A DNA stretch of 56,871 nt, from NCBI GenBank assembly GCA_001804705.1, contig MHAY01000032.1, positions 1-56,871 on the forward strand. Direction: 5' to 3'. A program made the translations under genes and the position numbers. Each line of letters begins with the position of its first letter. Position 1 is the stretch's first letter. Below are positions 11,778-29,788 of the stretch, piece after piece. The stretch is from Ignavibacteria bacterium RIFOXYC2_FULL_35_21. Its GTDB lineage: Bacteria > Bacteroidota > Ignavibacteria > Kapaibacteriales > UBA2268. A model generated the notes under the pieces. That model made no database searches. It saw only the letters and a program-made list of their open reading frames with translations, and was not told the DNA's origin.

Positions 11778-11861
11778 GCCCGGATGGCGGAACTGGCAGA
11801 CGCGCTACATTCAGGGTGTAGTGAGAGAACTCTCGTGCAGGTTCGATTCCTGTTCCGGGCA
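11778..11861 (+). tRNA. tRNA-Leu (anticodon CAG)
   Basis: The acceptor stem GCCCGGA pairs with TCCGGGC, followed by discriminator A; CCA is not encoded. The D arm contains GGAACTGGCAGAC, the anticodon stem CTACA/TGTAG encloses the loop TTCAGGG with anticodon CAG at 11812-11814, a long variable arm follows (GAGAGAACTCTC), and the T arm contains GGTTCGATTCC. The long variable arm and anticodon agree on leucine. Its 3' 52 bases are repeated at 29734. Confidence 0.95.
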
Positions 11862-11864
11862 CTG
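11810..11864 (+). repeat. 55-bp direct repeat, copy 1 (tRNA-Leu 3' half), candidate att site
   Basis: These 55 bases, from the anticodon loop to three bases past the tRNA end, recur exactly at 29734-29788. Duplication of a tRNA 3' end is the usual footprint of integration by a tyrosine recombinase. This copy keeps the tRNA whole. Confidence 0.8.
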
Positions 11865-12096
11865 TTGTAAATATTAGAATGATTATAGCAATAATATATT
11901 GGATAAATTGCAATAATATTTAATAATAAATTCCTGACAAAAATCTTAACAGTTTTTCCCTTTTTCATTGATAAGAAAAACTCGATATTAGATATACTGA
12001 ATAGATAATTTTTATACAAGTTGTACAAGTCTATGAAGCTTAAAAAACAAAGAAGGTGTTAATTAAATTCAAATTAGTTATTAATTTCAAATATTT

Positions 12097-13971
12097 TTAA
12101 TCATTCGCTAAGTTTACAATAACGAGTTCATCAATGGTTTTGGTTTTGTTGTTAATTTTTACAGCAAGTCCTAAATCCACATAATAACGATAATTCTCAT
12201 TGATATTAAGCAAACTGACTCTGTCTTTGTAATCCGAATTATCAACAATTTTTTCAAACTCTACATAAGGCATACCTATATATGCTTTATTATTTCGAGT
12301 GCCGCCATTTTTCTTTTGGATTACGACTTTGGGTGAAATTTGTTTGTTTAGTATTATAGCAAAAATATATTCACTCGCAAGAAGTTCAATACCTGAATTA
12401 TTCAGAATAATTCTTTTTAGATTCTTTCCCGGGATAACGGTTTTTTCTTCAATATCTAAGGAGTTAACTTTTGATAAAAACAAACTCTTCTTATCTGATA
12501 ATGAAATTGGTTTTTCCGCATTTATTTCTACACCTACAACTTTTTTGTTATTGCCGTTTGATTTTATCTTTAGTTTTCTTTCTCCTTCAGGTTTGAAATT
12601 ATATTTACTGCATAAGCTGAGATAATTGTCGTTTGCTCGCTGCCACCACGGAGATTTGTAACTAATACTTTTTTGAAAATCTTCAAATAATTTTAATGCT
12701 TCTTTATTCTTTTCCGGATTATCGGAACGCATCAGTAACATTGCTTTATTAAATTTAATTGCATTATTTATTTCATTTGTATTAAAATTATTAATGAAAG
12801 TGTATGATTCCGCAAATTGTCTGCTATAGTCTTCTGATTTATTAAAATTCACATATACACTATCCTGAGGAACATCCGAGAGCATGTTTGTCAGCCCTGC
12901 ATTCATATATATTAATGCTATTTCGGCAGGTCCTATAGAAGAATCAGTTTCTACAAGTTCCAGAGCCTCAGAAAAATATTTTGCAGCTTTACCAATGCTC
13001 CCTCTTCTGATAGGGCTTATTAAGTATGCCAGTCCCAGGTTGGCTTTTGCAAGCGTTAAATCCGGTTTTATTCTCAAAGCGAGTTGAAACTCACCAACGG
13101 CATCCCACCATAGGTCATTATCAATCCCTCTTATTTTATTTTTCAAAGAAACCGAATTTCTATAATAATTCCCTGTTACGAAATAACCGCCTGTTAATTC
13201 CTGAAAATCTCCTTCATCAAGGGTTTCGAGATATTTCATCAGCTTTGCATAACCGATATTCACATTAGCTTCGTAGCAATCAGGGAACTGCTCGAGAACA
13301 TAATTGAAACAATATGTAGCAGGGTCATATTGATTCAGAGACAAAAATGTTGTTCCGTTTTTAAAAGAACTGATTGACTCCCATATTTTCTTATGGCTTG
13401 AATCAAGACGTGAAAGCCTGTCGCTCCAGACAGGATGTTCACCATTCAAACAGTCGAATGGAGAATTGATTAATTCATCTGTTGTCAGCTTTTTTAAGCC
13501 CCTGATAATTTTTTTAAACTCGAATCCTGCATCTAAAGCAATGAGCATTCCTGCAAAATCCGCTTCGTATTCCTCTTCGCGGGTAAGAGCATTTTTTGTA
13601 AGCTCAGCTTCTTTATTAGTTTCTTCGCTGACGTGTGATTTAACAATATGTGCAAGTTCATGTGCTATAATAAAAGATATGAGGTGTTCATCTTCACCTG
13701 AAAACTTTGTTATTAGTCCCTGTGTGAGAGTTATGCGAAATCCGAATTTATCTTTATTAGATTGGTAATATATATTGCTTCCTGCTTCTATTGTTGTATC
13801 GGGTTTTATCATAAGTACAGGGGGCCAGTGATACTCTTTTAGGGGTGTGATTGACAGTAGAAGTTTATTAAGAATATTATCAGGATTTGTTGACTGACCA
13901 GAGTATCCCTGCTGTACGGAACAGGCAATGACAATCAAAAAGCCCAATATTCTTATTATAGCATTTTTCAT
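12097..13971 (-). CDS. Exported M48-type peptidase with TPR region
   Basis: A 624-residue protein. A signal peptide spans about residues 1-24, and a Cys lies at position 17. The zinc motif HELAH is at 104-108 with the third ligand in EYEADFAG (about 134-141), the arrangement of M48 peptidases such as BepA. Residues about 200-450 contain degenerate tetratricopeptide-like helices (YDPATYCFNYVLEQFPDCYEA; FQLALRIKPDLTLAKANLG). The C-terminal about 150 residues are beta-rich and unassigned. It is the last gene of an operon with an ECF sigma factor and a membrane protein, overlapping the latter by four bases. Like BepA it may handle misassembled envelope proteins. Confidence 0.8.
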   Translation of the reverse strand: MKNAIIRILGFLIVIACSVQQGYSGQSTNPDNILNKLLLSITPLKEYHWPPVLMIKPDTTIEAGSNIYYQSNKDKFGFRITLTQGLITKFSGEDEHLISFIIAHELAHIVKSHVSEETNKEAELTKNALTREEEYEADFAGMLIALDAGFEFKKIIRGLKKLTTDELINSPFDCLNGEHPVWSDRLSRLDSSHKKIWESISSFKNGTTFLSLNQYDPATYCFNYVLEQFPDCYEANVNIGYAKLMKYLETLDEGDFQELTGGYFVTGNYYRNSVSLKNKIRGIDNDLWWDAVGEFQLALRIKPDLTLAKANLGLAYLISPIRRGSIGKAAKYFSEALELVETDSSIGPAEIALIYMNAGLTNMLSDVPQDSVYVNFNKSEDYSRQFAESYTFINNFNTNEINNAIKFNKAMLLMRSDNPEKNKEALKLFEDFQKSISYKSPWWQRANDNYLSLCSKYNFKPEGERKLKIKSNGNNKKVVGVEINAEKPISLSDKKSLFLSKVNSLDIEEKTVIPGKNLKRIILNNSGIELLASEYIFAIILNKQISPKVVIQKKNGGTRNNKAYIGMPYVEFEKIVDNSDYKDRVSLLNINENYRYYVDLGLAVKINNKTKTIDELVIVNLAND

Positions 13972-14747
13972 TTCTTCTCAAGATAATCGTAGTAATCTTT
14001 CTTTATATTTTTAATAATATCTTTATATAGAGAACTGTCAATTAATTTAGATAATTTCAAATTCTCGTCGCTTAAAACGGATTCCTCCTGAATAAAAGAC
14101 AGCCTCAACTTATCGTCATTAATTAGTATAATTCTCAGCCTGCTGTCTGTTCTTTCACCATCACCGGTGTAATAATAATTCCAACCCGTAACAATCTCTT
14201 TATCATTAATGCTGACTATCTGAATATTTGAATTGACAAGTATTTTTTCAGCTAAATTGAAAACTCTCTGAATTAATATTTTATCTCTTATTTTTTCCTT
14301 ATTCACTTTCTCCGAGAAGCTATAAGATTTTAATTTTAGAGGAATGTATGCTAATTCAACTGACTTCGCAATTGTGATTTCTTTTTGAACACTTTCTTTC
14401 AAAACGGGGACCTCAGTTTGTGTTTCCTGTTTGAATGTCAGTTCAGTTGCTTTCTGAGGTATATAGTAATAGTTTCGGTACAGCAAGTAAGAGCCACCAA
14501 AGATGCAAAAGATTACTATTGCTGCTATTGCAGTCTTATAAAATGACTGCCTGTTAGAATAACTAACCTGAATTTTATGTATGAATTGCTTATAGATTGA
14601 CGGTTTACGTTCCTGCTTACTAAGTTTGTATTCTTTTACTACATTTTTAATTATTTGGTTATTCTCTTCACCTGATAATTCCTGATTGTCAAGGGAATCA
14701 AAATATTTTTTAAACGATTTATCTAATTTATATGTATTTTTATTCAT
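13968..14747 (-). CDS. Single-pass membrane protein, probable anti-sigma factor
   Basis: A 259-residue protein with an N-terminal cytoplasmic region of about 70 residues, one membrane helix (about 72-90, TAIAAIVIFCIFGGSYLLY) and a C-terminal domain of about 165 residues outside. This topology, and its position 32 bases after an ECF sigma gene, indicate an anti-sigma factor that holds the sigma at the membrane until a signal is sensed outside. No classic zinc-binding HxxxCxxC is visible in the cytoplasmic part, so the assignment rests on topology and context. It overlaps the M48-TPR gene by four bases. Confidence 0.65.
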   Translation of the reverse strand: MNKNTYKLDKSFKKYFDSLDNQELSGEENNQIIKNVVKEYKLSKQERKPSIYKQFIHKIQVSYSNRQSFYKTAIAAIVIFCIFGGSYLLYRNYYYIPQKATELTFKQETQTEVPVLKESVQKEITIAKSVELAYIPLKLKSYSFSEKVNKEKIRDKILIQRVFNLAEKILVNSNIQIVSINDKEIVTGWNYYYTGDGERTDSRLRIILINDDKLRLSFIQEESVLSDENLKLSKLIDSSLYKDIIKNIKKDYYDYLEKK

Positions 14748-14779
14748 GCTAATCTCAAATAGAAAATAATAAAACTTTT

Positions 14780-15352
14780 TTAATTAAATAATGACTCATC
14801 CTGAAATTGTTTATTCAAAACTTTTTCAAGAGTTTTTCTGCCCCTATTGAGCCAGTTTTTTATATTCTGTTCATTTGTATTCATCGTTTCCGCAATCTCA
14901 TTTATTTTCATATCTGCAAAATAGTGTAATATTATAGCGTTCTTATGAGATTCGTTACTTATCTTCTCCAATGCTGTTCTTAAAATATTTCCAATTTCTT
15001 CCGATTCTTTTTTATTATCATCAATAATATAATTAACGTTGATTTTATTTCCTTTTATATTATAGTTTATTTTCGACCATTTTACAGCTTCCCGCTTACC
15101 AATCTGATAAATATAATTCCCCAGATTCCCCTTTTTCCTGTCATAACTTTTTTGATACTTCAGAACCAGGAGCCATGTGTCCTGCAATACATCTTTAGCT
15201 CCCTCGCGGTCGCCCGTGATTCTGTAAATCATCCTGAAAAGCCAGGGATTTACCCTTTCAACAAGCTCGACAAAATAAGATTCCATTCCTGTCTGAAGAA
15301 ATCTTTCAAATAGCTCATCTAAATCATTCCTGCCGTTTTGTACACTATCCAT
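14780..15352 (-). CDS. ECF sigma-70 factor
   Basis: A 190-residue sigma factor with regions 2 and 4 only. Region 2 covers about residues 28-95 (NPWLFRMIYRITGDREGAKDVLQDTWLLVLKY, where the DxxQDTW block is the core-binding and -10 recognition helix). Region 4 covers about 125-180 (ALEKISNESHKNAIILHYF then INEIAETMNTNEQNIKNWLNRGRKTL, the -35 recognition HTH). It heads an operon with the anti-sigma-like and M48-TPR genes. A GAAACC-N17-TATATA promoter lies directly upstream and is shared with two divergent or distal units. The -10 ends only three bases before this ATG, so the mRNA may be leaderless or the true start may be Met23. Confidence 0.9.
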   Translation of the reverse strand: MDSVQNGRNDLDELFERFLQTGMESYFVELVERVNPWLFRMIYRITGDREGAKDVLQDTWLLVLKYQKSYDRKKGNLGNYIYQIGKREAVKWSKINYNIKGNKINVNYIIDDNKKESEEIGNILRTALEKISNESHKNAIILHYFADMKINEIAETMNTNEQNIKNWLNRGRKTLEKVLNKQFQDESLFN

Positions 15353-15355
15353 TTA

Positions 15356-15384
15356 TATATAGGAAAAAAAATGAAAAAGGTTTC
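15356..15384 (-). promoter_or_regulatory. ECF-type promoter P1 (autoregulation of sigma operon)
   Basis: On the minus strand GAAACC (15384-15379) is followed after exactly 17 bases by TATATA (15361-15356). The same boxes and spacing occur at 15418 and 19602. It faces the sigma operon, so the sigma factor probably drives its own transcription. Confidence 0.65.
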
Positions 15385-15417
15385 ATATTGAAAATTAATT
15401 AATTTTTTACTCATATT

Positions 15418-15446
15418 GAAACCTTTTCGCAAAAGCTTACTATATA
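15418..15446 (+). promoter_or_regulatory. ECF-type promoter P2
   Basis: GAAACC (15418-15423), 17 bases, TATATA (15441-15446), 46 bases before the ATG of the beta-helix gene. The sequence from TTGAAACC through TTTTCG and the bases around the -10 (CTTACTATATACC) match P3 almost exactly. It is divergent from P1, with 33 bases between the two -35 boxes. Confidence 0.7.
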
Positions 15447-15492
15447 CCTTACAGTTTAAACAGAATTTTTCAATTTTATGAGGAGAGTCATT

Positions 15493-16572
15493 ATGAAGAA
15501 GTTTTTTTTAATTCTAGCTTTCATTCTTTTTTTTGCAGTTTCGGTAAATGCACAAATGAGAGTTGTTACTGTTAAAAGTGGCACTTCAGTATTCTACTAC
15601 CCGGAACTGATTACGGCAGTATATAATGCACCTGAAGGTTCTGACATTTATATCGGAGGTGGAGTATATGAATTTACCTGTAATATAAACAAAGAGCTAC
15701 ATTTTTATGGAGTGGGTTGTTATCCTGATTCTACCATAGCAACCGGTTCAACAATAACAATCGGAAACCCCAGATTTATTGAGGGTTCTGATAACAGCAC
15801 TATTTCGGGTATAAACTTCACAGGTCATGAATTAAGAATAATTCCAGTGAATGGCGGAAACATTAATAATATTTCAATAACTAGATGCAGAATAAAGCGT
15901 TTATCTCTGGAAACTGGTGTAACTAATTTTAAAGTATCTGAATCAATAATAGATTGGATTTGGGATTATTGGTCGAGCAAAGTTGTTTTTGGCTGTATTA
16001 TTGAAAAAAATATTTTTATAAATGGTTACAAAGCTTTGCAAGGTCTAGATAATGCAATAATTGACCATAATATCTTTTTAGGATATCAGCCTAATGGAAA
16101 CCTTGGAGGTATGTTCCAGAGTGTCACAAATTCAATTTTTACAAATAATATTATTACCTCAAATGTTCCTCGAACCGAATTATTTAGTGCAGGTTATGGA
16201 GGTAATTTTAATATTATTTTTAAAAATAATTTTGTGGTAATTGAATCATTTGATCCCAATTATGATTTTGCAGAGGGACAGTCAAATGTGAGTATTGATA
16301 ATCAGTTTTATAATGATAAAACACCAGCTGATATATTTGTTAAATTTGAAAATCCAGATTTTGATTTTGGTAATGATTATCATCTAAAAGAACCGTATAA
16401 TGCCTTAACTTTCAGTACTGATGGTACCGAAATTGGTATCTACGGTACACAATTCCCTTACAAAGATGGAGCAGTGCCTGTTATACCTCACTATACCACT
16501 TCAGAGATCGGAGGAGAACTTATTAATGGACAGCTTCATATTAATGTAACAGTTGAAGCACAAACAAAATAA
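15493..16572 (+). CDS. Secreted right-handed beta-helix protein
   Basis: A 359-residue protein with a signal peptide (KKFFLILAFILFFAVSVNAQ). I start at the ATG at 15493, five codons into the longest frame, because AGGAGA stands at the right distance before it. The body is a parallel beta-helix: repeated short strands with asparagine ladders (NNISITRCRIKRL, NAIIDHNIFLG, NSIFTNNIITSN, NIIFKNNFVVIE). There is no T9SS sorting domain; the chain ends with LHINVTVEAQ. It may be a periplasmic or surface glycan-binding or lyase-like protein. It is controlled by promoter P2 and lies 40 bases before the next secreted protein, probably one transcript. Confidence 0.7.
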   Translation: MKKFFLILAFILFFAVSVNAQMRVVTVKSGTSVFYYPELITAVYNAPEGSDIYIGGGVYEFTCNINKELHFYGVGCYPDSTIATGSTITIGNPRFIEGSDNSTISGINFTGHELRIIPVNGGNINNISITRCRIKRLSLETGVTNFKVSESIIDWIWDYWSSKVVFGCIIEKNIFINGYKALQGLDNAIIDHNIFLGYQPNGNLGGMFQSVTNSIFTNNIITSNVPRTELFSAGYGGNFNIIFKNNFVVIESFDPNYDFAEGQSNVSIDNQFYNDKTPADIFVKFENPDFDFGNDYHLKEPYNALTFSTDGTEIGIYGTQFPYKDGAVPVIPHYTTSEIGGELINGQLHINVTVEAQTK

Positions 16573-16612
16573 TATTTTTTCATCACAAACAAATAATCAA
16601 AGGAGTTTATAT

Positions 16613-19543
16613 ATGAAAAAATATATATTTATTGTGAGCTTCCTGTTGCTTTGCTGGCGGCTTAATGCTACACCCATTACCGGCTATGAGTACTGGTTTG
16701 ATAGCGATACCAGTAATAAGGTAACAGTTATGACAACAGATACTTCTATAACCATAGAAACAATTTATAGTGGTTTGGATGTATCATCAATGAATCGGGG
16801 ACTCCATTTTCTTTACGTTCAATTTAAAAATAGCGAAGAAAATGTGGGAGATGTGCAAAGCATGTATTTTATAATTCCCGATTCACCACCCTGGACTAAT
16901 CCTGACAACAGAATAACAGGATATGAATACTGGCTCGATAATCAATTTAATGAAAGAACTATTATCCCTGTTGATAATCTCGAATCGTTCACAATAACTA
17001 CTGATATTGATTATAGTAGTTTAAACCGGGGTATTCACTTCTTCCATATCCGCTTCAGGGACAGCGAGGGTAAATGGAGTTGCGTTCAAAGTAACTATTT
17101 TGTCATTCCTGATAATGTACTGCCTTGGACCAATCCGAACAATGTCCTGACTGAGTATCAGTATTGGATTGATAGCCATTTTGATCAGATAGTATCAGGA
17201 ACAATTGATAATCTCTCATCCTTCAATATCACAACAGATGTGGATTACAGCTATCTGAACCGCGGATTACATTTTTTCCATATCCGCTTCAAGGATAGTG
17301 AGGGCAAATGGAGTTGTGTACAGAGTAATTACTTCATTATTCCTGATGTACTGCCATGGACAAATGAGTCAAATGTACTAAACGAATACGAGTATTGGCT
17401 CGATAATCAATACGAACAAAAAGTAAGCGGAACAACTAATAATGTTAAATCGTTTACAATATCTGAGAACATTGATTACAGCACTCTGAATCGTGGTCTT
17501 CATTTCTTCCATATCAGGTTCAAGGATAGTGAAAGCAAGTGGAGCTGTGTACAAAGCAATTATTTTATTATTCCTGATATTGAGCCATGGAGTAATTTAA
17601 ACAATAAAATCATAGCATATAAATACTGGTATGATGACAACACTGCAGGAACTGAGCTTATTACATTACAAGAGCCTGTAAACCCTTATGAACTGAATAC
17701 TGCTTTTACAGTACCTAATTTTTCCGAAGGTACAACACATTCCTTTAATATTCAGTTTATGGATTTAGAAGGAATGTGGTCGAGTGTAATTACATCAGAA
17801 TTTACATTCAATAATTCCATACCTGTTGCTGATGCAGGACTTTCGGATGAATATGTATATCTCGGTCAATCTGTCGAGCTTACCGGCTCAACAACAGATC
17901 CAAATAATGACCCGATTACAGCTTATGAATGGGTAATTGTGAGTACACCTGTAGGTTCAACTTTAGGCGGGACAACTGTTAGCACGTCAGATTTTAATTT
18001 CACACCGGATGTAGTTGGTGACTATCAGATATCATTCAGGGCATCCGATGGCTTGGCATGGAGTGATGCTGATTATGTTACAGTTCATGTAGCAGAAAAT
18101 CAAGTCCCGGTTGCAGTTATTTCTGCTGATGTTACTTCAGGTAAAGCTCCTCTGACTGTCAACTTTGATGGCTCTCAGTGCAGTGACCCGGAAAATGTTC
18201 AGCTTCAATATGAATGGGATTTCGGAGATGGCAGTCCTGTTTCTAATGAAATATCTCCTGCTCATATATACAATACTCCCGGGATTTATAATGTTACCGT
18301 AAAAGTTTCAGACGGCTTTAATCCACCGGTTGAAAGCAATATTACGATTACCGTGCTTATTCCTAATTATCCACCAATTGCTATATGCAAGGATGTTACA
18401 GTATATGCAAATGCTACTCAATGTATGGCTAATGCTTCAATTGATAATGGTTCGAGTGACCCGGACAATGATGAAATCACCATTACTCAGGAGCCTCCTG
18501 GTCCCTATCCTTTAGGTAATTCAACTGTTAGTCTAACAGTAACCGATGAACATGGCTTATCTTCATCATGCAACGCAAATGTTAATGTCATTGATAACAC
18601 TCCCCCTGTTGTGCTAACAAAAAATCCAACTGTTACACTTGTGAAAGGTACAGCGTCAATCACGATTGATGATGTTGACAATGGAAGTTATGACAACTGC
18701 GGAATTGCGGAGATGTCACTTAGTAAATCCACCTTTGATTGCAGTGACGGCGGGAGAACAGTTGATGTGATATTAACAGTTACTGATGTCAATGGCAATA
18801 CAGCAACAGGTACTTCGATAGTTTCTGTGATTGGTGAAATCCCATCAATTGGCATTTCAGTATATCCTCCTTATACTGTTCCGGGAGAAGATAAGAACAC
18901 GATTTACCTTGGTTATGGTTATCAAAGTGTAACTTTAACTGCATCGGGTGGTACGAATTATAGCTGGACTTCAGACCCCCCGGGATTTACATCCAATGTT
19001 GCAAATCCTACAGTTTCACCGACAGATACAACAACATACACTGTAACGGTAACAAATGATTATGGATGTACAGGGACAATGTCTATAACTGTTATAGTTG
19101 TAGATTGGAGATGCGGCAATGGTGACCATAAAGTTAAGGTTTGCCATAATGGAAAAACAATTTGTATTGATACACATGCAGTTCAGCTACATTTGGAGCA
19201 TGGGGATTATTTGGGTGATTGCAATCCAAATAATGGACATGATAATGGAGATATAAATCCTGACCCACCAAATAACGATAATATTTCAGTTAGGCTGAAA
19301 CAAAATAATCCTAATCCTTTTGCTACAACTACTGAAATTCAATATTTCGTATCTCAGCAGGCACATGCAACTATTGTTCTGACTGATATAGAAGGCAGTG
19401 AGATTGCCAGGCTTATTGATATGACTGTAAAAGCCGGCTGGAGTTCATTGATTATGAACGGTTCTAACTTATCAGCAGGCACATATTACCTGAGGCTTGA
19501 ATCAATGGGCAAGGTGGATATACTCGGTATAACCAAGTATTGA
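16613..19543 (+). CDS. Large T9SS surface protein with tandem repeats and PKD domains
   Basis: A 976-residue protein. The frame opens at 16553, but AAAGGAG before the ATG at 16613 and the signal peptide that follows (KKYIFIVSFLLLCW) set the start. Residues about 24-400 hold five repeats of about 75 residues, each with GYEYW(L/F)D, LNRGLHFFHIRF and a WSCVQSNYFIIPD ending. Then come PKD/Ig-like beta domains (about 410-590, with YEWDFGDGSP), HYR-like segments (about 590-740) and a Cys/His-containing stretch (VKVCHNGKTICIDTHAVQLHLEHGD). The last about 85 residues (NPNPFATTTEIQY to the end) are a T9SS type A sorting domain. It is probably a cell-surface adhesin or glycan-binding protein in the P2 transcript. 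Confidence 0.85.
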   Translation: MKKYIFIVSFLLLCWRLNATPITGYEYWFDSDTSNKVTVMTTDTSITIETIYSGLDVSSMNRGLHFLYVQFKNSEENVGDVQSMYFIIPDSPPWTNPDNRITGYEYWLDNQFNERTIIPVDNLESFTITTDIDYSSLNRGIHFFHIRFRDSEGKWSCVQSNYFVIPDNVLPWTNPNNVLTEYQYWIDSHFDQIVSGTIDNLSSFNITTDVDYSYLNRGLHFFHIRFKDSEGKWSCVQSNYFIIPDVLPWTNESNVLNEYEYWLDNQYEQKVSGTTNNVKSFTISENIDYSTLNRGLHFFHIRFKDSESKWSCVQSNYFIIPDIEPWSNLNNKIIAYKYWYDDNTAGTELITLQEPVNPYELNTAFTVPNFSEGTTHSFNIQFMDLEGMWSSVITSEFTFNNSIPVADAGLSDEYVYLGQSVELTGSTTDPNNDPITAYEWVIVSTPVGSTLGGTTVSTSDFNFTPDVVGDYQISFRASDGLAWSDADYVTVHVAENQVPVAVISADVTSGKAPLTVNFDGSQCSDPENVQLQYEWDFGDGSPVSNEISPAHIYNTPGIYNVTVKVSDGFNPPVESNITITVLIPNYPPIAICKDVTVYANATQCMANASIDNGSSDPDNDEITITQEPPGPYPLGNSTVSLTVTDEHGLSSSCNANVNVIDNTPPVVLTKNPTVTLVKGTASITIDDVDNGSYDNCGIAEMSLSKSTFDCSDGGRTVDVILTVTDVNGNTATGTSIVSVIGEIPSIGISVYPPYTVPGEDKNTIYLGYGYQSVTLTASGGTNYSWTSDPPGFTSNVANPTVSPTDTTTYTVTVTNDYGCTGTMSITVIVVDWRCGNGDHKVKVCHNGKTICIDTHAVQLHLEHGDYLGDCNPNNGHDNGDINPDPPNNDNISVRLKQNNPNPFATTTEIQYFVSQQAHATIVLTDIEGSEIARLIDMTVKAGWSSLIMNGSNLSAGTYYLRLESMGKVDILGITKY

Positions 19544-19677: not shown

Positions 19678-21405
19678 ATGAAAATTTTGAAAACTTTATT
19701 TGCATTTCTTCTTTTCGGAGTAATGTCAACGAGCCTTTTTGCACAAAATCCTTATTTAGTTAAGGATATTTATCCCGGAGCAGTAGAAAGCCGTCCTGTT
19801 GGGGGAACGGGATTGAACGGGATTTTCTATTTCTCGAGCGATAATGGTGTATTCGGCAGGGAAATGTGGCGTTCTGACGGGACTGATGCCGGCACATACA
19901 TTGTAAAAGATATTCACCCTAACAATCCAACCGGGTGGGGTGTACAAATGGTTTATAATGTTAATAATTTATTGTATTTCAGTGGAAATGATGGTAAAAA
20001 CGGCCAAGAACCTTGGAAAAGCAACGGAACAGCTAACGGAACTACAATGATAAAAAATATTGCACCTTCTTCAGGTTCATCTCAACCAAATCATTGGACT
20101 CTTTCGGGGAATATAATCTATTTTAATCCATGTCCATTAAACCAGGACTGGCAGATTTGGAAAACCGATGGCACATCTGCCGGAACAGTGCTTATTAAAA
20201 ATATTAATAAGAAAGGAAATGATGCTGCAAGCTATTTCCACGATGTAAATGGGACGCTTTTCTTTTGGGCTGACAATGGAAGTACAGGCATAGAACTATG
20301 GAAAAGCAATGGTACAACCTCAGGTACAGTCATGGTTAAGGAAATCAGGCCAGGTATCTCATCTTCATATCCGTCCGGTTTTCCAAGACCGTCCTATTAT
20401 ACACCTGTTACTTTTGATTGGACAAAAGAGCTGGCTGTTGGCAGTATTTATTATTTTACTGCTGATGATGGCTCAAATGGAGCAGAGCTATGGAAGAGTG
20501 ACGGTACATCAGGTGGAACCGTAATGGTTGCTAATATAAATTCGTTAGCCGGGTCATATCCGCATTGGCTGACACAAATGGGCAATTATCTCTATTTCTC
20601 TGCTAATGATGGAACAAGCGGTTATGAACTATGGAGCTTAAACCTATCAAATGGAACCGTTTCTTTGGTTAGTGATTTAAATGCACAATCCGGCTCATAC
20701 CCGATGCAGTTGACAGTAGTAAATGATTTACTTTACTTCAGTGCAGATGATGGTGTGAACGGACGTGAATTATGGAGGTATGATGCTGTTAATCCTCCAG
20801 TAGCAGTTACGAATTTAAACGGTTCAGAAAAAGGAGTATATGATTCAACATATTTCAGAATGGCAAACGTATTGACATATCATTACAGATTCCCGAGCTA
20901 CAACGGCACAGTATTTTTTGAAGCTAATGACGGAACTACAGGTTGGGAACTTTGGCAGTACCATCCTGCATCAGGAGTCTCTCTGGTTAAAGATATTAAT
21001 CCCGGCATGGCAAAATCAAGATTGGAGGGGCCTTGTATTGTTGATACTAAATTATTTTTTACAGCTGATGACGGAATACATGGCAGGGAACTGTGGTGTT
21101 ATGATATGAGCCAGCCCATCAATGCACCTATGGTTGTCGAAACCATGCAGTCTGATAATTATAAAATTGACTTTTATCCAAATCCCGCAAGCGAGTCTCT
21201 GACAATAAGCGGTGAATTTAAGAATAATGTCAACCTGAATATTAAAATATTCGACCTGCTCGGCTATGAAATTATGAATACCGAAAAATCTTCAGTCAGC
21301 AGGATTTCCGAGCAAATTGATATTTCCGGCTACCCTGCAGGTATGTACATAATCAACTTCAGATTCAATGGACAGTCAGTCCAGCAAAAATTCATAAAGA
21401 AATAA
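19678..21405 (+). CDS. T9SS surface protein with ELWxSDGTxxGT repeats
   Basis: A 575-residue protein with signal peptide (KILKTLFAFLLFGVMSTSLFA). The body consists of about nine blade-like repeats in which a strand Y/FFSADDG is followed by G-x-ELW-x-SDGT-x-x-GT and VKDI-P-G-S-P. This hyalin-like repeat family is common in secreted bacterial proteins and likely folds as a beta-propeller. The last about 80 residues (DFYPNPASESLTISG to FIKK) are a T9SS type A sorting domain. It is a single-gene transcript with promoter P3 and a terminator after it. Ligand or substrate unknown. Confidence 0.85.
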   Translation: MKILKTLFAFLLFGVMSTSLFAQNPYLVKDIYPGAVESRPVGGTGLNGIFYFSSDNGVFGREMWRSDGTDAGTYIVKDIHPNNPTGWGVQMVYNVNNLLYFSGNDGKNGQEPWKSNGTANGTTMIKNIAPSSGSSQPNHWTLSGNIIYFNPCPLNQDWQIWKTDGTSAGTVLIKNINKKGNDAASYFHDVNGTLFFWADNGSTGIELWKSNGTTSGTVMVKEIRPGISSSYPSGFPRPSYYTPVTFDWTKELAVGSIYYFTADDGSNGAELWKSDGTSGGTVMVANINSLAGSYPHWLTQMGNYLYFSANDGTSGYELWSLNLSNGTVSLVSDLNAQSGSYPMQLTVVNDLLYFSADDGVNGRELWRYDAVNPPVAVTNLNGSEKGVYDSTYFRMANVLTYHYRFPSYNGTVFFEANDGTTGWELWQYHPASGVSLVKDINPGMAKSRLEGPCIVDTKLFFTADDGIHGRELWCYDMSQPINAPMVVETMQSDNYKIDFYPNPASESLTISGEFKNNVNLNIKIFDLLGYEIMNTEKSSVSRISEQIDISGYPAGMYIINFRFNGQSVQQKFIKK

Positions 21406-21840: not shown

Positions 21841-22815
21841 ATGGAAAATAAAGGTGAGATAATAATCTATCAGACTGAGGACAACGAAACTCAAATCGAA
21901 GTTCGTCTGGAAGAAGAGACTATTTGGTTAACACAAGCCCAAATGATGAAATTATTTGAGACAACCAAGCAAAATATTAGTTTGCATATTAATAATATTT
22001 TTAAAGAAGGAGAGCTCCAAAGAAATTCAGTTGTCAAGGAATACTTGACAACTGCGATTGATGGGAAGGATTACAATACAAAATATTTCAATCTTGATGT
22101 AATTATCTCTGTCGGTTACAGAGTGAAATCCCGAAGAGGTACACAATTTCGCATTTGGGCAAATAAAGTTCTGAAAGATTTTCTTCTGAAAGGTTTTGCA
22201 TTAAATAAAAAACTTTTACAAAACCAAAATGAAAAACTGAACCAATTGAATGAAACCATAAAGCTGATTTCTTCAATTTCTGCTTCAGAATATCTTAATG
22301 CAGAAAACAAAGATACAATTTTATTACTATTGGAAAGATATTCGAAAGCTCTTAATATTCTGGATGACTATGATTATAATAAATTCAGTGAAATTCAGGA
22401 AAACGAAGGTACAGTATATATTCTAAAATATGACGAAGTAAGGAAAATTATTAATAAAATGAAGTCAACTGTTAACAATTCCAAATATTTTGGGAAAGAA
22501 AAGGATGAATCGTTGAAAAGCTCAATATCTGCAATTTATCAGACATTCGATGGGAAAGATTTATATCCTACCATAATTGAAAAGGCAGTTATTCTGTTAT
22601 ATTTCATTGTCAAAAACCATTCATTTGTAGATGGTAACAAAAGAATTGCCGCATCAGTTTTTTTATATTTCCTTGCTCAAAATAAAATACTCGCTCAAAT
22701 CGAATTGGATAATGATTTATTAGTTGCTTTGACTTTGATGATAGCAAACAGCAAACCATCGGACAAAGATTTGATTGTGAATATTGTATCCGTTATTTTG
22801 CAGGTGAAGAATTAA
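21841..22815 (+). CDS. RhuM-Fic/Doc fusion protein
   Basis: A 324-residue protein. The N-terminal half (residues 1-125: IIIYQTEDNETQIEVRLEEE, TIWLTQAQMMKLFETTKQNI, DVIISVGYRVKSRRGTQFRIWA) is the RhuM-type virulence domain. The C-terminal half is a Doc-like Fic domain with HSFVDGNKRIA at 260-270. This matches H-x-F-x-D-G-N-K-R of Doc rather than HPFxxGNGR of AMP-transferring Fic, so phosphorylation or another phosphotransfer is possible. A helical linker joins the two. It is a single gene enclosed by about 175-bp direct repeats, which suggests it moves or moved as a cassette. No antitoxin-like partner is seen. Confidence 0.85.
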   Translation: MENKGEIIIYQTEDNETQIEVRLEEETIWLTQAQMMKLFETTKQNISLHINNIFKEGELQRNSVVKEYLTTAIDGKDYNTKYFNLDVIISVGYRVKSRRGTQFRIWANKVLKDFLLKGFALNKKLLQNQNEKLNQLNETIKLISSISASEYLNAENKDTILLLLERYSKALNILDDYDYNKFSEIQENEGTVYILKYDEVRKIINKMKSTVNNSKYFGKEKDESLKSSISAIYQTFDGKDLYPTIIEKAVILLYFIVKNHSFVDGNKRIAASVFLYFLAQNKILAQIELDNDLLVALTLMIANSKPSDKDLIVNIVSVILQVKN

Positions 22816-22835
22816 TTATATAATGGGCATCAGAT

Positions 22836-23011: not shown

Positions 23012-23068
23012 AATATGAATTACGAATTGTGTTTAAATTTTAAATTGAAAATTAATAGTAGCGATCTT

Positions 23069-26000
23069 ATGAAACAAATCAAATTTATTACAGTATTAAT
23101 ATTATTCATTATTCACTGTTCACTATTCACTACTTCTGCTTCCGCCCAGTCCTGGCAGGAGCTGATGGACAGCACAAAATTCTATCAGGAAAAGCAGGAC
23201 TACCAAACAGCTTTGGAATGGGCAGAGAAAGCACTGCCGCAGGCAGAAAAAGAATTTGGAGAGAAGGATACGAATTATGTGTCAACACTCGGCTCTATCT
23301 CAGAAATATATTATTATCAAGGTAACCTTGATTCTGCAATTTATTATGGAGATATAAATCTTAAAATATGCAGAACTATATTCAAGGACGACCATCCTGA
23401 TTTAGCAAATTCCATCAACAACATGGCTTATTTCTACGATGGCAGGGGCAATTACAAGGAAGCAGAGCCGCTATACAAAGAAGCATTGGAAATGCGAAGA
23501 CGCATCTTCAAGGGCGACCGTCCTGCTTTAGCAGGTTCCATCAATAATATGGCTATGTTCTACAATGGCAGGGGCAATTACAAGGAAGCAGAGCCACTAT
23601 TTAAAGAAGCATTGGAAATGCGAAGACGCATCTTCAAGGGCGACCATCCTGATTTAGCAAATTCCATCAACAACATGGCTTATTTCTACAATGGCAGGGG
23701 CAATTACAAGGAAGCTGAGCCGCTATACAAAGAAGCATTGGAAATGCGAAGACGCATCTACAAAAGCGACCATCCTGCTTTAGCAGGTTCCATCAATAAT
23801 ATGGCTTATTTCTACAATGGCAGGGGCAATTACAAGGAAGCTGAGCCTCTTTATAAAGAAGCTCTTGAGATGAGAAGGAGACTATTCAAAGGCGACAATC
23901 CTGATTTAGCAAATTCCATCGGCAGCATGGCTTCGTTCTACAATGGCAGGGGCAATTACAAGGAAGTTGAGCCGCTATACAAAGAAGCATTGGAAATGCG
24001 AAGACGCATCTTCAAGGGCGACCATCCTGCTTTAGCAGGTTCCATCAACAACATGGCTTATTTCTACGATGGCAGGGGCAATTACAAGGAAGCTGAGCCG
24101 CTATACAAAGAAGCATTGGAAATGTTCAGACGCATCTTCAAGGGCGACCATCCTGATTTAGCAATGTCCATCAACAACATGGCTTATTTCTACGATGGCA
24201 GGGGCAATTACAAGGAAGCAGAGCCTCTTTTCAGGGAAGCCCTCGAGATGTTCAGAAGAATATTCAAAGGCGACCATCCCGATTTAGCAATGAGCTTAAA
24301 CAACATGGCTGTATTTTACCGTGAACGAGGTAATTTCAAGGAAGCAGAGCCTCTATATAAAGAAGCCCTTGAGATGGGTAGAAGACTATACAAAGGCGAC
24401 CATCCCAATTTAGCTTCAAGCATAAGTAACATGGCTGTGTTTTATAGTGAACAAGGCAATTACAAAGAAGCCGAGTCTCTTTATAAGGAAGCTCTTGAGA
24501 TGAGAAGAAGACTATACAAAGGTGACCATCCCAATATAGCAACGAGCATAAACAACATGGCTTTTTTTTACCAAAAACTTGGCAATTACAAAGAAGCAGA
24601 GCCTCTTTTCAGGGAAGCCCTTGAGATGGTCAGAAGAATATTCAAAGGCGACCATCCTATTCTAGCTTTAAGCGTAAACAACATGGCACGTTTTTACCAG
24701 ATGACTAATAGATATACAGAAGCAGAACCTTTATTTGAAGAATTGTTTGAGTCAACAATGAAAAACGTAAGGGAATACTTTCCATACCTGAATGAAACAC
24801 AAAAAGCAGATTATTGGAATACACTTGATTATAGAATTAATAATTATCTTGATTTTGGTGCCGAGTATTCCAAAACAAAACCTGAAATAGTTGAAAAGAT
24901 GGTGGATGTAACGCTTGCCACAAAAGGCATCGTTCTCAACTCCACACAAAAAGCATTGAGCAAGGCAAGGCAAACCAGAAGGACACTGGATGACTGGATA
25001 AACACACGCCAGTTGTGGATGAACCTCGTTCAGAATCCCGATAAGGCAAAAAAGATGGGATATGATGTTGATTCAGTTGAAAGAGTTGCAGCAGAGCTTG
25101 AGAAAGAAATTTCAGGTCAATCCCCTGAATTCAGGAAGGCATTCGATACTTCACAAGTAAGATGGCGTGATGTACAAAACAAGCTTGGCAACAGTGAAGC
25201 GGTAATTGAGATAATTAGGAATCAGGGACGAAGAGATAGTTCGGTTAAGTATCTGGTTTTAATTACAAAGAAAAACAGCAAAATACCCGAGCTTGTTGTT
25301 CTTGAAAACGGGATTGAACTTGAAAACAGTTATATAAAACGGTATAAGGGATTGATTGATATACAAGCCAGAGGCACAAAGCTGAGGGATGTTGAGCTTG
25401 ATGAGCTAAAAGGTTTATACAATCAATTCTGGAAACCTATACAGGAAAAGCTTGGAGGAATAAGCACTGCATACCTTTCTATGGATGGAGTGTATAATCA
25501 GTTCAATCCGAATACACTGCTTAATCCTGCGACAAATAAATATGTCTTAGAAGAGATTGATTTAAGATTTTTAACAAGCACTCGTGATTTGGTAAAAGAC
25601 GCAAAATATGCTCAGGAACCAAAGCCAATACCAATGGACAATGCTGTGCTGTTCGGAGCTCCCGAATTTGAACTGAGGAAGGAAGTAATTCCAAGAATAA
25701 AACAACATGAAGATAATAGCCAGACACGGAATTATTACCTCGGTGGTTTGTTAGATGAAATAGCAAAGAGAGGCATAACACCATTGCCCGGAACAAGAAT
25801 AGAGGTAAAGAAAATCACAAACAGTTTCGAGTTGAAGAACATAAAAGCAGAAGATTTCTTAGGTGAGCAGGCATTGGAAGAGAACGTGAAATCAGCGAAG
25901 AATCCTAAAATCCTTCACATAGCTACGCATGGAGTTTTTCTTAAAGATGTCGAGTACATGAGCATGGACTTCGAGTCTGACATGAAAAAGCACGTTGAGA

Positions 26001-26419
26001 ATCCATTGCTCCGTTCCATGCTTTTATTCTCAGGAGCAGAAAACACAATCAAAGGTGAAACGAGCGATGACTTTACAAAAGACGATGGAATTCTTACAGC
26101 CTTCGAAGTGATGAACCTCGACCTTGACGAGACGGAACTTGTAGTTCTTTCAGCATGCAAGACAGGCTTAGGAGAAATCAAGAATGGTGAAGGTGTTTAC
26201 GGCTTGCAGAGGGCATTCAAGGTAGCCGGAGCAAAATCAATTGTGATGAGTCTTTGGTCGGTCAACGACGAGACAACTCAATTACTGATGACAAAGTTTT
26301 ATGAGAATTGGCTCGGTGGAATGCCAAAGCGAGAAGCATTCCGCAAGGCACAGCAAAACGTCAAAGCAAAACATCCAGACTTTTATTATTGGGGTGCATT
26401 TGTGATGGTGGGCGAGTGA
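23069..26419 (+). CDS. Secreted TPR-CHAT protease 1
   Basis: A 1116-residue protein. I start at the ATG at 23069, since a signal peptide (KQIKFITVLILFIIHCSLF, cleavage near ASAQS) begins there. Residues about 55-540 are tetratricopeptide repeats of kinesin-light-chain type, with at least eleven 42-residue units (DHPDLANSINNMAYFY, GRGNYKEAEPLYKEALEM, RRRIFKG). The first seven are nearly identical. The C-terminal about 350 residues are a CHAT domain, a caspase-fold peptidase, with His954 in HIATHG and Cys1030 in LSACKTG. TPR-CHAT proteins cut a target bound by or sensed through the repeats. The signal peptide places this one outside the cytoplasm. It has a tandem paralogue immediately downstream. 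Confidence 0.9.
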   Translation: MKQIKFITVLILFIIHCSLFTTSASAQSWQELMDSTKFYQEKQDYQTALEWAEKALPQAEKEFGEKDTNYVSTLGSISEIYYYQGNLDSAIYYGDINLKICRTIFKDDHPDLANSINNMAYFYDGRGNYKEAEPLYKEALEMRRRIFKGDRPALAGSINNMAMFYNGRGNYKEAEPLFKEALEMRRRIFKGDHPDLANSINNMAYFYNGRGNYKEAEPLYKEALEMRRRIYKSDHPALAGSINNMAYFYNGRGNYKEAEPLYKEALEMRRRLFKGDNPDLANSIGSMASFYNGRGNYKEVEPLYKEALEMRRRIFKGDHPALAGSINNMAYFYDGRGNYKEAEPLYKEALEMFRRIFKGDHPDLAMSINNMAYFYDGRGNYKEAEPLFREALEMFRRIFKGDHPDLAMSLNNMAVFYRERGNFKEAEPLYKEALEMGRRLYKGDHPNLASSISNMAVFYSEQGNYKEAESLYKEALEMRRRLYKGDHPNIATSINNMAFFYQKLGNYKEAEPLFREALEMVRRIFKGDHPILALSVNNMARFYQMTNRYTEAEPLFEELFESTMKNVREYFPYLNETQKADYWNTLDYRINNYLDFGAEYSKTKPEIVEKMVDVTLATKGIVLNSTQKALSKARQTRRTLDDWINTRQLWMNLVQNPDKAKKMGYDVDSVERVAAELEKEISGQSPEFRKAFDTSQVRWRDVQNKLGNSEAVIEIIRNQGRRDSSVKYLVLITKKNSKIPELVVLENGIELENSYIKRYKGLIDIQARGTKLRDVELDELKGLYNQFWKPIQEKLGGISTAYLSMDGVYNQFNPNTLLNPATNKYVLEEIDLRFLTSTRDLVKDAKYAQEPKPIPMDNAVLFGAPEFELRKEVIPRIKQHEDNSQTRNYYLGGLLDEIAKRGITPLPGTRIEVKKITNSFELKNIKAEDFLGEQALEENVKSAKNPKILHIATHGVFLKDVEYMSMDFESDMKKHVENPLLRSMLLFSGAENTIKGETSDDFTKDDGILTAFEVMNLDLDETELVVLSACKTGLGEIKNGEGVYGLQRAFKVAGAKSIVMSLWSVNDETTQLLMTKFYENWLGGMPKREAFRKAQQNVKAKHPDFYYWGAFVMVGE
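23392..24320 (+). repeat. Near-identical 126-bp tandem repeats inside TPR-CHAT gene 1
   Basis: Seven to eight consecutive 126-base units repeat almost base for base (for example GGCAGGGGCAATTACAAGGA recurs in seven units). The similarity at the DNA level, not only the protein level, shows recent expansion or homogenisation. Later TPR units in the same gene are diverged. Confidence 0.85.
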
Positions 26420-26460
26420 TTCTGAATCTTAAATTTTGAATTAATGATAAAGTTGACTAA

Positions 26461-29400
26461 ATGAAATTAAAAACTGCATTAATATTATTCACTATTCACT
26501 TTTCACTATTCAATGCCTCCGCCCAGTCCTGGCAGGAGCTAATGGATTCAACAAAAGCATATCAGGAAAAGCAAGACTATCAAACTTCTTTGCTGTGGGC
26601 ACAAAAGGCTCTAGTAAATGCTGAAAAGGAATTTGGAAAAGATACAAATTATGCTTCTACTTTAAATAAAATTGCAGATATATTTTATAATTCAGGAAAA
26701 ATTGATTCTGCAATCTATTATCAGGAAATTCACCTTAATTTATTCAGAAACCTTTATAAAGAAGACCATCCGAATTTATCAAGTAGCATAAACAATTTGG
26801 GTTTTTATCATAACAATCAAGGAAATTTTAAGGAGGCTGAACAACTCTTCAAGGAAGCCCTTGATATGGATAGAAGATTATATAGAGGTGACCATCCAGA
26901 TTTAGCTTTGAGTATAAACAATTTAGCTACTATTTATGATGTTCACGGCAACTCTATAGATGCAGAATCATTATACAAAGAAGCCATCGAGATGATAAGA
27001 AGACTATTCAAAGGTGACCATCCGGATTTAGCATTGATGCTTCACAACTTTGCTACATTCTACGGCGACAGAGGTAACTTGAAAGAAGCGGAACTTTTAA
27101 TAAATGAAGCTGTAGAGATGTATAAAAGAGTTTACAAAGGTGACCATCCTAATTTAGCCAAAAGCACACGATTGATGGCTTATTACTGCCTTGAAAGATG
27201 TGACTATAATCAAGCAGAAATTTTATATAAAGAATCCCTTGAAATGAGAAGGCGGCTTTTCAAAAAAGATCATGCCGAGTTAGCCAAGGGTATAAACGGT
27301 ATGGCTTCTTTTTATATCAAAGTAGGTAATTATAAAAAAGCTGAACATTTATTTAAAGAAGCATTGGATATGAATAAACGACTTTTCAAAGGCGACCATC
27401 CCAATTTAGCAATCATCTTAAATAACATGGCATATTTCTTCTATCATAATAAAAACTTTGATGAAGCCGAAACTTATTTTAAAGAAGCTATGGAAATGAG
27501 AAGAAGAATTTTCAAAGATGACCATCCTTATTTAGCTACAAGTATAGATAACATGGCAATGTTATATTTTAGTAAAAGAAACTATAAGGAAGCAGAACCC
27601 TTATTTAAGGAAGCATTGGAAATGTTTAGACGTTTATTCAAAGAAGACCATCCTGATCTGGCTTATAGTATAAACAATATGGCTGAATTTAATAATATCA
27701 GTGGCAACTATATAGTTGCTGAATCTTTATTCAGAGAATCATTGGAGATGAGAAGACGTCTTTTAAATAACCTTCATCCTGATTTGACAAGCAGTATAAA
27801 TGACATGGCTAATTTTCTATGTGAAAGAAACAGATTCAGTGAAGCAGAACCCTTATTAGAAGAATCATTTGAAATCACTTTGAAAAATATAAGGAACTAT
27901 TTTCCATATTTAAATGATTTGCAGAAAATGGATTATTGGAGCACTCTTGAATATGGAATTTCAAATTATCTTAGCTTTGGTGCCGAGTATTCCAAAACAA
28001 AACCTGAAATACTTGAAAAAATGGTGGATGTAACGCTTGCAACGAAAGGCATTGTTCTTAACTCAACACAAAAAGCATTCAATAGTATAAGAAAAGATAA
28101 GGATGTATTTGATACATGGCAAAGCACACGCCAGTTCTGGCTTCAGCTTGTTCAAAATCCTGACAAAGCAAAGAAGATGGGTATTAATGTTGACTCGGTT
28201 GAAAGAGCCGCCGCCGAATTGGAAAAAGAAATATCAGGTCAATCATCTGAATTTAGAAAGGCATTTGATACTTCGCTTGTCCGGTGGCGGGATGTGCAAA
28301 ACAAACTTGGCAGTAGTGAAGCGGCAATTGAGATAATCAGAAATCAGTCACGAAAGGATACTGTAAAATATCTGGTATTAATAACAAAAAAAGACAGCAA
28401 AATACCCGAGCTTGTTTCATTGGCTAACGGAATAGAACTTGAAAACAGTTATATAAAACGGTATAAGGGATTGATTGATATACAAGCCAGAGGAACTGAG
28501 TTGAGGGATATTGACCTGCAGGAGTTGAAGGAACTATATAATCAATTCTGGAAACCCATTCAGCAAAAGCTTGGAGGAATAAGCACGGCTTATGTCTCCA
28601 TGGATGGAGTGTATAACCAGTTCAATCCGAATACACTGTTGAATCCCGTGACAAATAAATATGTACTCGAAGAAATTGATTTAAGATTTCTAACAAGCAC
28701 GAGAGATTTGGTAAAAGATGCAAAATATGCAAATGAGCCAAAGCCAATACCAATGGACAACGCAGTGTTGTTCGGAGCTCCAGAATTTGAATTGAAGAAG
28801 GAAGTAATTCCAAGGAAGAAAACAAATGAAGACAATAGCCAGACACGAAATTATTACTTAGGCGGCTTGCTGGATGAAATAGCTAAGAGAGGTATTTCAC
28901 CTTTACCAGGAACAAGAATAGAGGTAAATAAAATAACAAGCAGTTTCGAGCTGAAGAACATAAAAGCAGAGGATTTCCTCGGCGAGCAGGCATTGGAAGA
29001 AAATGTGAAATCAGCAAAGAATCCTAAGATACTGCACATTGCAACACACGGAGTATTTCTGAAAGACGTCGAGTACATGACAATGGACTTTGAGACTGAC
29101 ATGAAGAAACACATAGAGAATCCACTACTTCGTTCGATGCTATTGTTCTCAGGAGCAGAGAACACAATCAAAGGTGAAACCAGCGATGACTTCACAAAAG
29201 ACGATGGGATACTTACAGCCTTCGAAGTGATGAATCTCGACCTTGATGAAACTGAGCTTGTAGTACTATCTGCATGCAAGACAGGCTTAGGTGAAATTAA
29301 AAATGGCGAAGGTGTATATGGATTGCAGAGAGCATTCAAGGTAGCAGGAGCGAAATCAATTGTTATGAGTCTTTGGTCAGTCAATGACGAGACTACACAA

Positions 29401-29538
29401 TTACTGATGACGAAGTTTTATGAGAACTGGCTCGGAGGCATGACAAAGAGGGAAGCATTCCGCAAAGCACAGCTACACGTAAAATCAAAACATCCCGATT
29501 TTTACCATTGGGGTGCATTTGTTATGGTAGGAGAGTGA
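26461..29538 (+). CDS. Secreted TPR-CHAT protease 2
   Basis: A 1025-residue paralogue of the preceding gene, 41 bases downstream and probably in the same transcript. Signal peptide KLKTALILFTIHFSLFNASAQ. The TPR region (about residues 50-460) has ten or so diverged 42-residue units without the recent duplications of its neighbour. The C-terminal half, from YSKTKPEILEKMVDVTLATKG onward, is nearly the same as in paralogue 1, with His863 in HIATHG and Cys939 in LSACKTG. The conserved catalytic half and free-running repeat half suggest the same cleavage activity with different recognition. Confidence 0.9.
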   Translation: MKLKTALILFTIHFSLFNASAQSWQELMDSTKAYQEKQDYQTSLLWAQKALVNAEKEFGKDTNYASTLNKIADIFYNSGKIDSAIYYQEIHLNLFRNLYKEDHPNLSSSINNLGFYHNNQGNFKEAEQLFKEALDMDRRLYRGDHPDLALSINNLATIYDVHGNSIDAESLYKEAIEMIRRLFKGDHPDLALMLHNFATFYGDRGNLKEAELLINEAVEMYKRVYKGDHPNLAKSTRLMAYYCLERCDYNQAEILYKESLEMRRRLFKKDHAELAKGINGMASFYIKVGNYKKAEHLFKEALDMNKRLFKGDHPNLAIILNNMAYFFYHNKNFDEAETYFKEAMEMRRRIFKDDHPYLATSIDNMAMLYFSKRNYKEAEPLFKEALEMFRRLFKEDHPDLAYSINNMAEFNNISGNYIVAESLFRESLEMRRRLLNNLHPDLTSSINDMANFLCERNRFSEAEPLLEESFEITLKNIRNYFPYLNDLQKMDYWSTLEYGISNYLSFGAEYSKTKPEILEKMVDVTLATKGIVLNSTQKAFNSIRKDKDVFDTWQSTRQFWLQLVQNPDKAKKMGINVDSVERAAAELEKEISGQSSEFRKAFDTSLVRWRDVQNKLGSSEAAIEIIRNQSRKDTVKYLVLITKKDSKIPELVSLANGIELENSYIKRYKGLIDIQARGTELRDIDLQELKELYNQFWKPIQQKLGGISTAYVSMDGVYNQFNPNTLLNPVTNKYVLEEIDLRFLTSTRDLVKDAKYANEPKPIPMDNAVLFGAPEFELKKEVIPRKKTNEDNSQTRNYYLGGLLDEIAKRGISPLPGTRIEVNKITSSFELKNIKAEDFLGEQALEENVKSAKNPKILHIATHGVFLKDVEYMTMDFETDMKKHIENPLLRSMLLFSGAENTIKGETSDDFTKDDGILTAFEVMNLDLDETELVVLSACKTGLGEIKNGEGVYGLQRAFKVAGAKSIVMSLWSVNDETTQLLMTKFYENWLGGMTKREAFRKAQLHVKSKHPDFYHWGAFVMVGE

Positions 29539-29733
29539 TTTCATTTACAAATTGTGATAAAATTTTCTATGGGAACAAATTTCATACAGACAAATACAGA
29601 CAAATGAAGTTGAAAGATACTCGTTCTCATGGAAAGTAGAAAATTACAAGAAATATTTAAGTGTCTGAGAAAACAAAAAGTTGTATCATTGACAAATTCC
29701 ATGAAGATTAGAATATTTCAATAGTTTACTAAC

Positions 29734-29788
29734 TTCAGGGTGTAGTGAGAGAACTCTCGTGCAGGTTCGATTCCTGTTCCGGGCACTG
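29734..29788 (+). repeat. 55-bp direct repeat, copy 2 (tRNA-Leu 3' half remnant), candidate att site
   Basis: Exact copy of 11810-11864: variable arm, T arm and 3' acceptor strand of tRNA-Leu without the 5' half. It cannot form a tRNA. It marks the distal end of an interval of about 18 kb. Confidence 0.8.

Follow-up and report, generated by a model that had tools for sequence, protein, structure and literature searches.

tRNA-Leu(CAG) and its displaced 3' half

The DNA analysed here (the window) is a stretch of 56,871 nt, contig MHAY01000032.1 of Ignavibacteria bacterium RIFOXYC2_FULL_35_21; coordinates are those of the + strand. Its own genome, G000, is a 4.15-Mb draft in 105 contigs (97.75% complete), and two of the relatives used for comparison, G001 and G002, come from the same genus. 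Our subject is the 18-kb interval between the tRNA-Leu(CAG) gene, the sole tRNA that ARAGORN finds in the window, and a second copy of the 3' half of that gene. An earlier reading of the letters alone (the sequence-only reading) had taken this interval for an island integrated at the tRNA 3' end. The features at its two ends are as follows:

11778..11862, +: tRNA-Leu(CAG), intact (ARAGORN); putative regenerated target on the attL side
11810..11864, +: 55-bp direct repeat, copy 1; 11810-11816 (TTCAGGG) is the anticodon loop, 7 nt
29563..29733, +: non-coding DNA, probable integrase-proximal attachment-site arm, integrase gene missing
29584..29606, +: 10-bp tandem direct repeat (ACAGACAAAT x2), putative arm-type integrase-binding sites
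29691..29697, +: third GACAAAT, tentatively an extra arm-type site
29734..29788, +: 55-bp repeat, copy 2, the displaced tRNA-Leu 3' half on the probable attR side; 0/55 differences

The 55-mer at 11810-11864 occurs exactly twice in the window, both times on the + strand (at 11810 and 29734) and never on the - strand. The far copy and tRNA-Leu(CAG) agree at 55 of 55 bases, as had been claimed, and identity ends at both edges. The local score of the 55-mer is 110 at the far copy versus 29 at the next best place in the window, and it reaches 19 to 25 in three mono-shuffled windows (one strand). The first base of the repeat is also that of the anticodon loop (TTCAGGG; the stem in the tRNA is CTACA/TGTAG), and its last lies 2 nt beyond the gene end. 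Besides the variable arm, T arm and acceptor strand to which the sequence-only reading had confined it, it therefore takes in the anticodon with the 3' strand of its stem.

The first anticodon-loop base is a standard crossover point of tyrosine integrases. Identity between the tRNA and the far half begins at TTCAGGG in the window, in G001 and in G002, which places the probable crossover region at 11810-11816; in G007 and G013, two to four extra tRNA-like bases precede TTCAGGG, and the partial copy of G027 starts in the variable arm.

When the tRNA gene and its flanks (151 bases) were searched against G000, five places matched at E ≤ 1e-3: the gene itself, the copy at 29734 (E = 4.9e-22), the tRNA-Leu genes TAG (C84) and CAA (C71), and a partial copy at 9330-9378. 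The half is not scattered over its own genome, and the finding that would have spoken against an attachment site, a repeat present at many unrelated loci, was not seen. No listed open reading frame (ORF) of at least 80 aa lies over the far copy. The two crossovers lie 17,924 bases apart, inside the 2-200 kb range of the island finder Islander, and the layout is the one Islander looks for: an intact tRNA gene (tDNA) and, downstream in the same orientation, a displaced 3' fragment without protein-domain overlap (ORFs of at least 80 aa).

The arm beside the far half and the integrases of relatives

In a survey of 60 genomes, own included, the tRNA gene with its flanks matched 50. Besides the window, the 3' part alone occurs in G001, G002 (two copies), G007, G013 and G027, giving seven far ends for comparison (window, G001, G002:C3, G002:C24, G007, G013 and G027). 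At three of them, a tyrosine integrase starts near the half and reads away from it, at a distance of 229 bp in G002:C24, 195 bp in G007:C13 and 221 bp in G013:C3. These three integrases form one clade (56-59% mutual identity), which is found in 4 of 123 genomes of the order at E ≤ 1e-70; at E ≤ 1e-40, 9 of 100 genomes have a match, the additional ones being 32-40% identical. In G027, the tRNA-Leu gene and a 38-bp 3' part are 5.7 kb apart, and this genome has just two PF00589 matches, both on another contig.

We searched the non-coding DNA left of the far half against 100 genomes, own included, and six others matched. The arm at 29563-29733 aligns with G002:C3:8983-9152 at 86%, with G001:C28:6477-6669 at 80% and with G013:C3 at 79% over 62 bp, and all three of these matches adjoin a tRNA-Leu half; those in G010, G020 and G072 are short and weak (E 1e-4 to 5e-4). 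The matching stretch of G013:C3 lies between the integrase and the tRNA-Leu half; there and in the window, its distance to the crossover is 86-90 bp. On G002:C3, 71 bp separate the arm from the start of a truncated integrase: the reading frame stops at about residue 95, and over residues 1-92 it shares 66% identity with the integrase of G013 (E = 5.8e-33). The proposed footprint of integration at tRNA-Leu is thus supported by the same two ends in G001 and by an arm whose homologues in relatives flank a cognate integrase or what is left of one.

The far end on G002:C3 with its truncated integrase (L043:8220-9215) is inverted, lying 0.85 kb upstream of an intact tRNA-Leu and facing the opposite direction.

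It is very improbable that ordinary recombination, without an integrase, produced the far copy as a stray duplicate of a tRNA half. Such an origin would suit the other partial tRNA-Leu copy nearby (9330-9378) and a genome rich in dispersed repeats. In the window, G001 and G002 alike, however, the anticodon loop is exactly where identity starts, and the far copy adjoins an integrase-proximal arm; this arm together with the truncated integrase in G002:C3 strongly disfavours it.

In six of the seven far ends, the 10-bp tandem repeat has its start at -146 to -152 relative to the crossover. It reads CAGACAAATA/CAGACAAATG in the window, and G001 and G002:C3 are like the window; G002:C24 has CATACATTTA twice, G007 has CACGTACAAC/CACGTACAAA and G013 has CATACGAATA/CATACGAAAC. 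We infer that these repeats are arm-type integrase-binding sites, for which their common offset is a stronger point than the repeat scores of single sequences. Of 54 family genomes, 3 have the exact GACAAATACNGACAAATG pattern, always beside a tRNA-Leu half, and 8 have it with at most one mismatch. The stretches fetched around the six one-mismatch sites contained no tRNA gene. At one such site, on G002:C33, a distant integrase (23-26%) lies about 0.8 kb away; at the five in other genomes, no relative of the four integrases used as queries was found in the loci searched.

The statement that no integrase lies inside the interval held up. G000 has five PF00589 matches (C88, C2, C18, C66 and C60), none of them in the window, and the four queried integrases gave no match to the window at E ≤ 1e-3. 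The attachment repeats therefore flank an interval without a recognised recombinase, serine recombinases being covered only by the Pfam scans of the cargo ORFs; an integrase gene inside, which Islander asks for, was not found. No clade integrase was found in the G000 draft at E ≤ 1e-40, nor in G001. At E ≤ 1e-3, G000 has just two weak matches (26-37% identity), on C88 and C2, which are probably XerC/XerD. Contig C18 encodes a 349-aa tyrosine recombinase (PF00589) just before an oxidoreductase gene whose G001 counterpart lies beyond the far half; we considered this recombinase, and a link to the island could not be shown.

Two further loci of G002 concern the integrase clade and its target. On C38 (L128:7198-7580), tRNA-Leu(CAA) is followed after about 110 bp by a C-terminal remnant of a clade integrase (residues 333-395, 74%), a hint of a second target. 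On C24 (L044:10277-11170), a putAbiC (PF16872) gene stands directly past the tRNA-Leu half. A phage or plasmid origin was also considered and set aside: no match of the G013 integrase among 472 phage or 196 plasmid records reaches 60% identity, and the best 8 listed of each are at 26 to 32%. Viral contigs contained four distant integrase relatives (20-30%) and no exact match to the 52-nt tRNA half.

Proposed integration, probable loss of the integrase and alternatives

Together, these results suggest that the interval is an integrative island which a tyrosine integrase inserted into the anticodon loop of tRNA-Leu(CAG), and that the integrase gene was later deleted (probability about 0.8; our estimates for this reading and its rivals overlap and are not intended to sum to 1). 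On entering tRNA-Leu(CAG) at the anticodon loop, the element would have rebuilt the tRNA at 11778-11862 with its own copy of the 3' half, displacing the original half to 29734-29788. The integrase gene would once have stood at the right end, reading inward, with about 200 bp between it and the displaced half, an arrangement seen in the three relatives. Its deletion would have brought the upstream arm and the putative arm-type sites (29563-29733) next to the end of a TPR-CHAT gene. This probably happened before the lineages of the window and G001 separated; G001 keeps the same two ends. The island of the window's genome has both core sites intact but, lacking an integrase, can most likely no longer move; of the two options offered by the sequence-only reading, a degenerate element or one mobilised in trans, the first is the better. 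We regard it as an ordinary kind of tDNA genomic island, caught after integrase loss.

G001 has tRNA-Leu followed by the M48/sigma operon on C146, and RhuM-Fic, one CHAT gene, the arm and a decayed half on C28. DNA identity to the window is about 80% over the common parts, with the same outermost genes at both ends. Since G001 has the same CHAT-arm joint without an integrase, the joint is older than the window/G001 split. A relative carrying the interval with no repeat at its far end, which would have counted against integration, was not encountered: G001 has the ends of the interval and a decayed far half. Over the 171 columns of the arm there are 15 window-specific and 21 G001-specific changes, and over the 55 columns of the half there are 0 and 9 (Fisher p = 0.025 for the window and 0.49 for G001). 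Because the window's displaced half is unmutated, excision in silico restores a tRNA, which ARAGORN still calls tRNA-Leu(CAG); the excised site of G001 is not so called. By these junction calls, the G001 island looks locked in, whereas loss of the window's island would be tolerated.

The same data bear on whether an island without its own integrase might still be mobilised in trans, satellite-like, by a clade integrase from another element, which we consider unlikely. The arm is kept at 86% in G002 and 80% in G001 with its 10-bp repeats, and the displaced half has 0 of 55 window-specific changes against 15 of 171 in the arm, although this p value is modest and comes from one arm. One arm subtype occurs in three species with the integrase missing (G000 and G001) or truncated (G002:C3), G002 also has a whole clade integrase, and the microcin H47 island is a precedent (PMC3191183). 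On the other hand, no clade integrase was found in the window genome (an incomplete draft with five PF00589 matches) or in G001, the whole integrase of G002 goes with different arm repeats (CATACATTTA), and the half of G001 has decayed such that excision in silico restores no tRNA. A broader version, slightly less probable still, is that islands of this genus without a whole integrase keep the GACAAATACNGACAAATG arm subtype and intact cores, and are periodically moved by the integrases of related elements at the same tRNA-Leu. This would be a satellite arrangement resting on a shared attachment arm alone.

Several observations weigh against integration followed by integrase loss. GC content shows no shift at the interval boundaries and does not set the interval apart. 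No pair of arm repeats was recognised at the left end, where a single TGACAAAAA at 11935 is unconserved in G001. The shorter far end of G027 has no tandem repeat (best 6/10 and off-position), single-sequence mono-shuffles equal the best repeat score in 2 to 93 of 2000, and the G007 arm holds equal repeat scores at other places. Similar repeat arrays occur in unrelated viral contigs: the arm pattern is present in 13 viral stretches, none of which matches the four integrases queried, and L116, L117, L119 and L127 have an extra GGAC/AGAC unit at the same 10-bp step, so that such arrays are not unique to this family. In G028, the fourth genome with a clade integrase (45%), the upstream stretch examined contains no tRNA-Leu half. 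The two island ends of G001 are on separate contigs, and their linkage is therefore presumed.

Nor did the comparison suggested earlier, with relatives retaining an empty site, yield one. We searched the right flank in G001, G002, G003, G015, G013, G007 and G027 and the left flank in G001, G002, G003 and G015; among the matches listed for these seven genomes and 21 loci, no tRNA-Leu is directly followed by the window's right flank. This is because the flanks are rearranged among relatives, in which the neighbours of tRNA-Leu and both flanks vary. In G002, for example, tRNA-Leu is on C3, most of the left flank on C26 and the right flank on C6. The DNA right of the half is a nucleotidyltransferase pair in the window versus an NADH:flavin oxidoreductase gene in G001, so at least one right flank is rearranged.

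These points leave room for a composite interval, a possibility to which we give clearly less weight than to a single island. Its right end (the CHAT genes, arm and half) would be an integrase element, and part of the left cargo, namely the M48/sigma operon and surface proteins, a separate arrival; the 18 kb would then never have been one mobile unit. The tRNA-Leu site has been busy (the 5' part at 9330-9378, two far ends in G002 and the G027 interval without a nearby integrase), and RhuM-Fic is bracketed by a genome-dispersed 188-bp repeat; the left end without recognised arm repeats and the separate contigs of G001 also fit. Against this, the same outermost genes stand at both ends in G001 at about 80% DNA identity, and the interval itself yielded no further displaced half.

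As a single island, the interval can be set beside known systems. In Islander (PMC4383910), the anticodon-centred class A comprises 2083 of 3919 islands and a 3' fragment is present in 3760 of 3919. The window's island resembles these in its intact tDNA, its downstream 3' fragment in the same orientation, its anticodon-centred attachment site and its length, and differs in that Islander requires an integrase gene inside; it would therefore be filtered out. The 13-kb microcin H47 island of E. coli (PMC3191183) is of similar size, has direct-repeat flanks and also lacks its own recombinase. Experiments demonstrated that it excises and integrates, the functions coming from chromosomal genes not linked to it, whereas the window's island is known from sequence only and no cognate integrase was found in its genome. 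The attachment arm thus allows an island to be mapped, and paired with the integrase it has lost, even where an integrase-requiring finder would reject it; the match rests on tandem sites at a fixed offset, on homology to an integrase-bearing relative and on a sister species that has a half-deleted intermediate. A simple test for lock-in is to ask if the displaced half would yield a tRNA once the island is excised.

Riemerella anatipestifer likewise belongs to the Bacteroidota. Its 10K island also integrates at a tRNA gene, with a 53-bp attachment site, but uses tRNA-Arg and has a working integrase (PMC6764341). NBU1 of Bacteroides (PMC10865867) shares the tRNA-Leu target and the phylum; its core overlaps the tRNA 3' end, unlike the identity here, which begins at the anticodon loop, and no NBU1-type core at the tRNA-Leu 3' end was found in the window's island.

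Cargo, flanks and site history

The genes between the repeats are the following:

12097..13971, -: protein with M48 metallopeptidase match (Pfam)
13968..14747, -: protein without Pfam match
14780..15352, -: sigma-70 family factor (regions 2 and 4), ECF-like (Pfam)
15478..16572, +: protein without Pfam match, signal-peptide-like N terminus (by eye)
16553..19543, +: large PKD-domain protein with Por secretion tail (Pfam)
19678..21405, +: repeat protein with Por secretion tail (Pfam)
21841..22815, +: RhuM-Fic protein, candidate defence gene; best PADLOC model PDC-S23 (E = 1.9e-120)
23015..26419, +: TPR-CHAT protein 1 (Pfam); one such gene on G001 C28
26461..29538, +: TPR-CHAT protein 2, tandem paralogue, sitting where relatives have the integrase

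In the contigs searched, the M48 protein has one close relative, in the G001 record (82% aa identity), and the C-terminal part of the 19678-21405 repeat protein is present on G001 C28. From its position and sequence, we would guess that the 13968-14747 product is a membrane anti-sigma partner. A DNA search with 11865-23300 against G002, G003 and G015 gave, among the matches listed, only short ones to dispersed repeats and CHAT paralogues.

Both TPR-CHAT proteins match a PADLOC TPR model (E = 3e-27 and 4e-17), and the N termini encoded by the tandem genes (23015-29538) are signal-peptide-like by eye. The pair shares 84% DNA identity between 24719-26421 and 27841-29540; because G001 C28 has one CHAT gene, the second was either gained in the window's line or lost in G001. 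RhuM-Fic is flanked by a 188-bp direct repeat (88%; 21575-21760 and 22836-23022), a unit that is dispersed over many contigs of G000 and relatives in both orientations and resembles small mobile repeats.

Directly right of the far half, 29815-30545 encodes an NTase_sub_bind/nucleotidyltransferase (HEPN-MNT-like) pair, and its nucleotidyltransferase (30216-30545), outside the island, matches a PADLOC model (E = 2.9e-8). The stretch 29789-31258, comprising this pair and a small protein, has no match among those listed for the seven genomes; the right flank as matched in G002 and G003 begins at about 31627. The NADH:flavin oxidoreductase gene of G001 has its G000 counterpart on C18. Two repeat families, at 31259-31513 and 40010-40193, are dispersed on many contigs of the genus, and the points at which the G000 and G001 flanks part have dispersed-repeat copies nearby, at 31334-31511 and on G000:C18.

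Left of the island, one feature concerns the history of the site:

9202..9378, +: decayed toxin-antitoxin copy (9202-9297) and tRNA-Leu 5' part with upstream bases (9330-9378)

It matches 11382-11803, and the copy lies upstream of a methyltransferase/deacetylase pair; in G001, the toxin-antitoxin stretch is on the other side of that pair. The toxin at 11418-11717 has a YafQ_toxin match just below the Pfam cut-off. The arrangement of the copy suggests an older duplication or integration 5' of the same tRNA.

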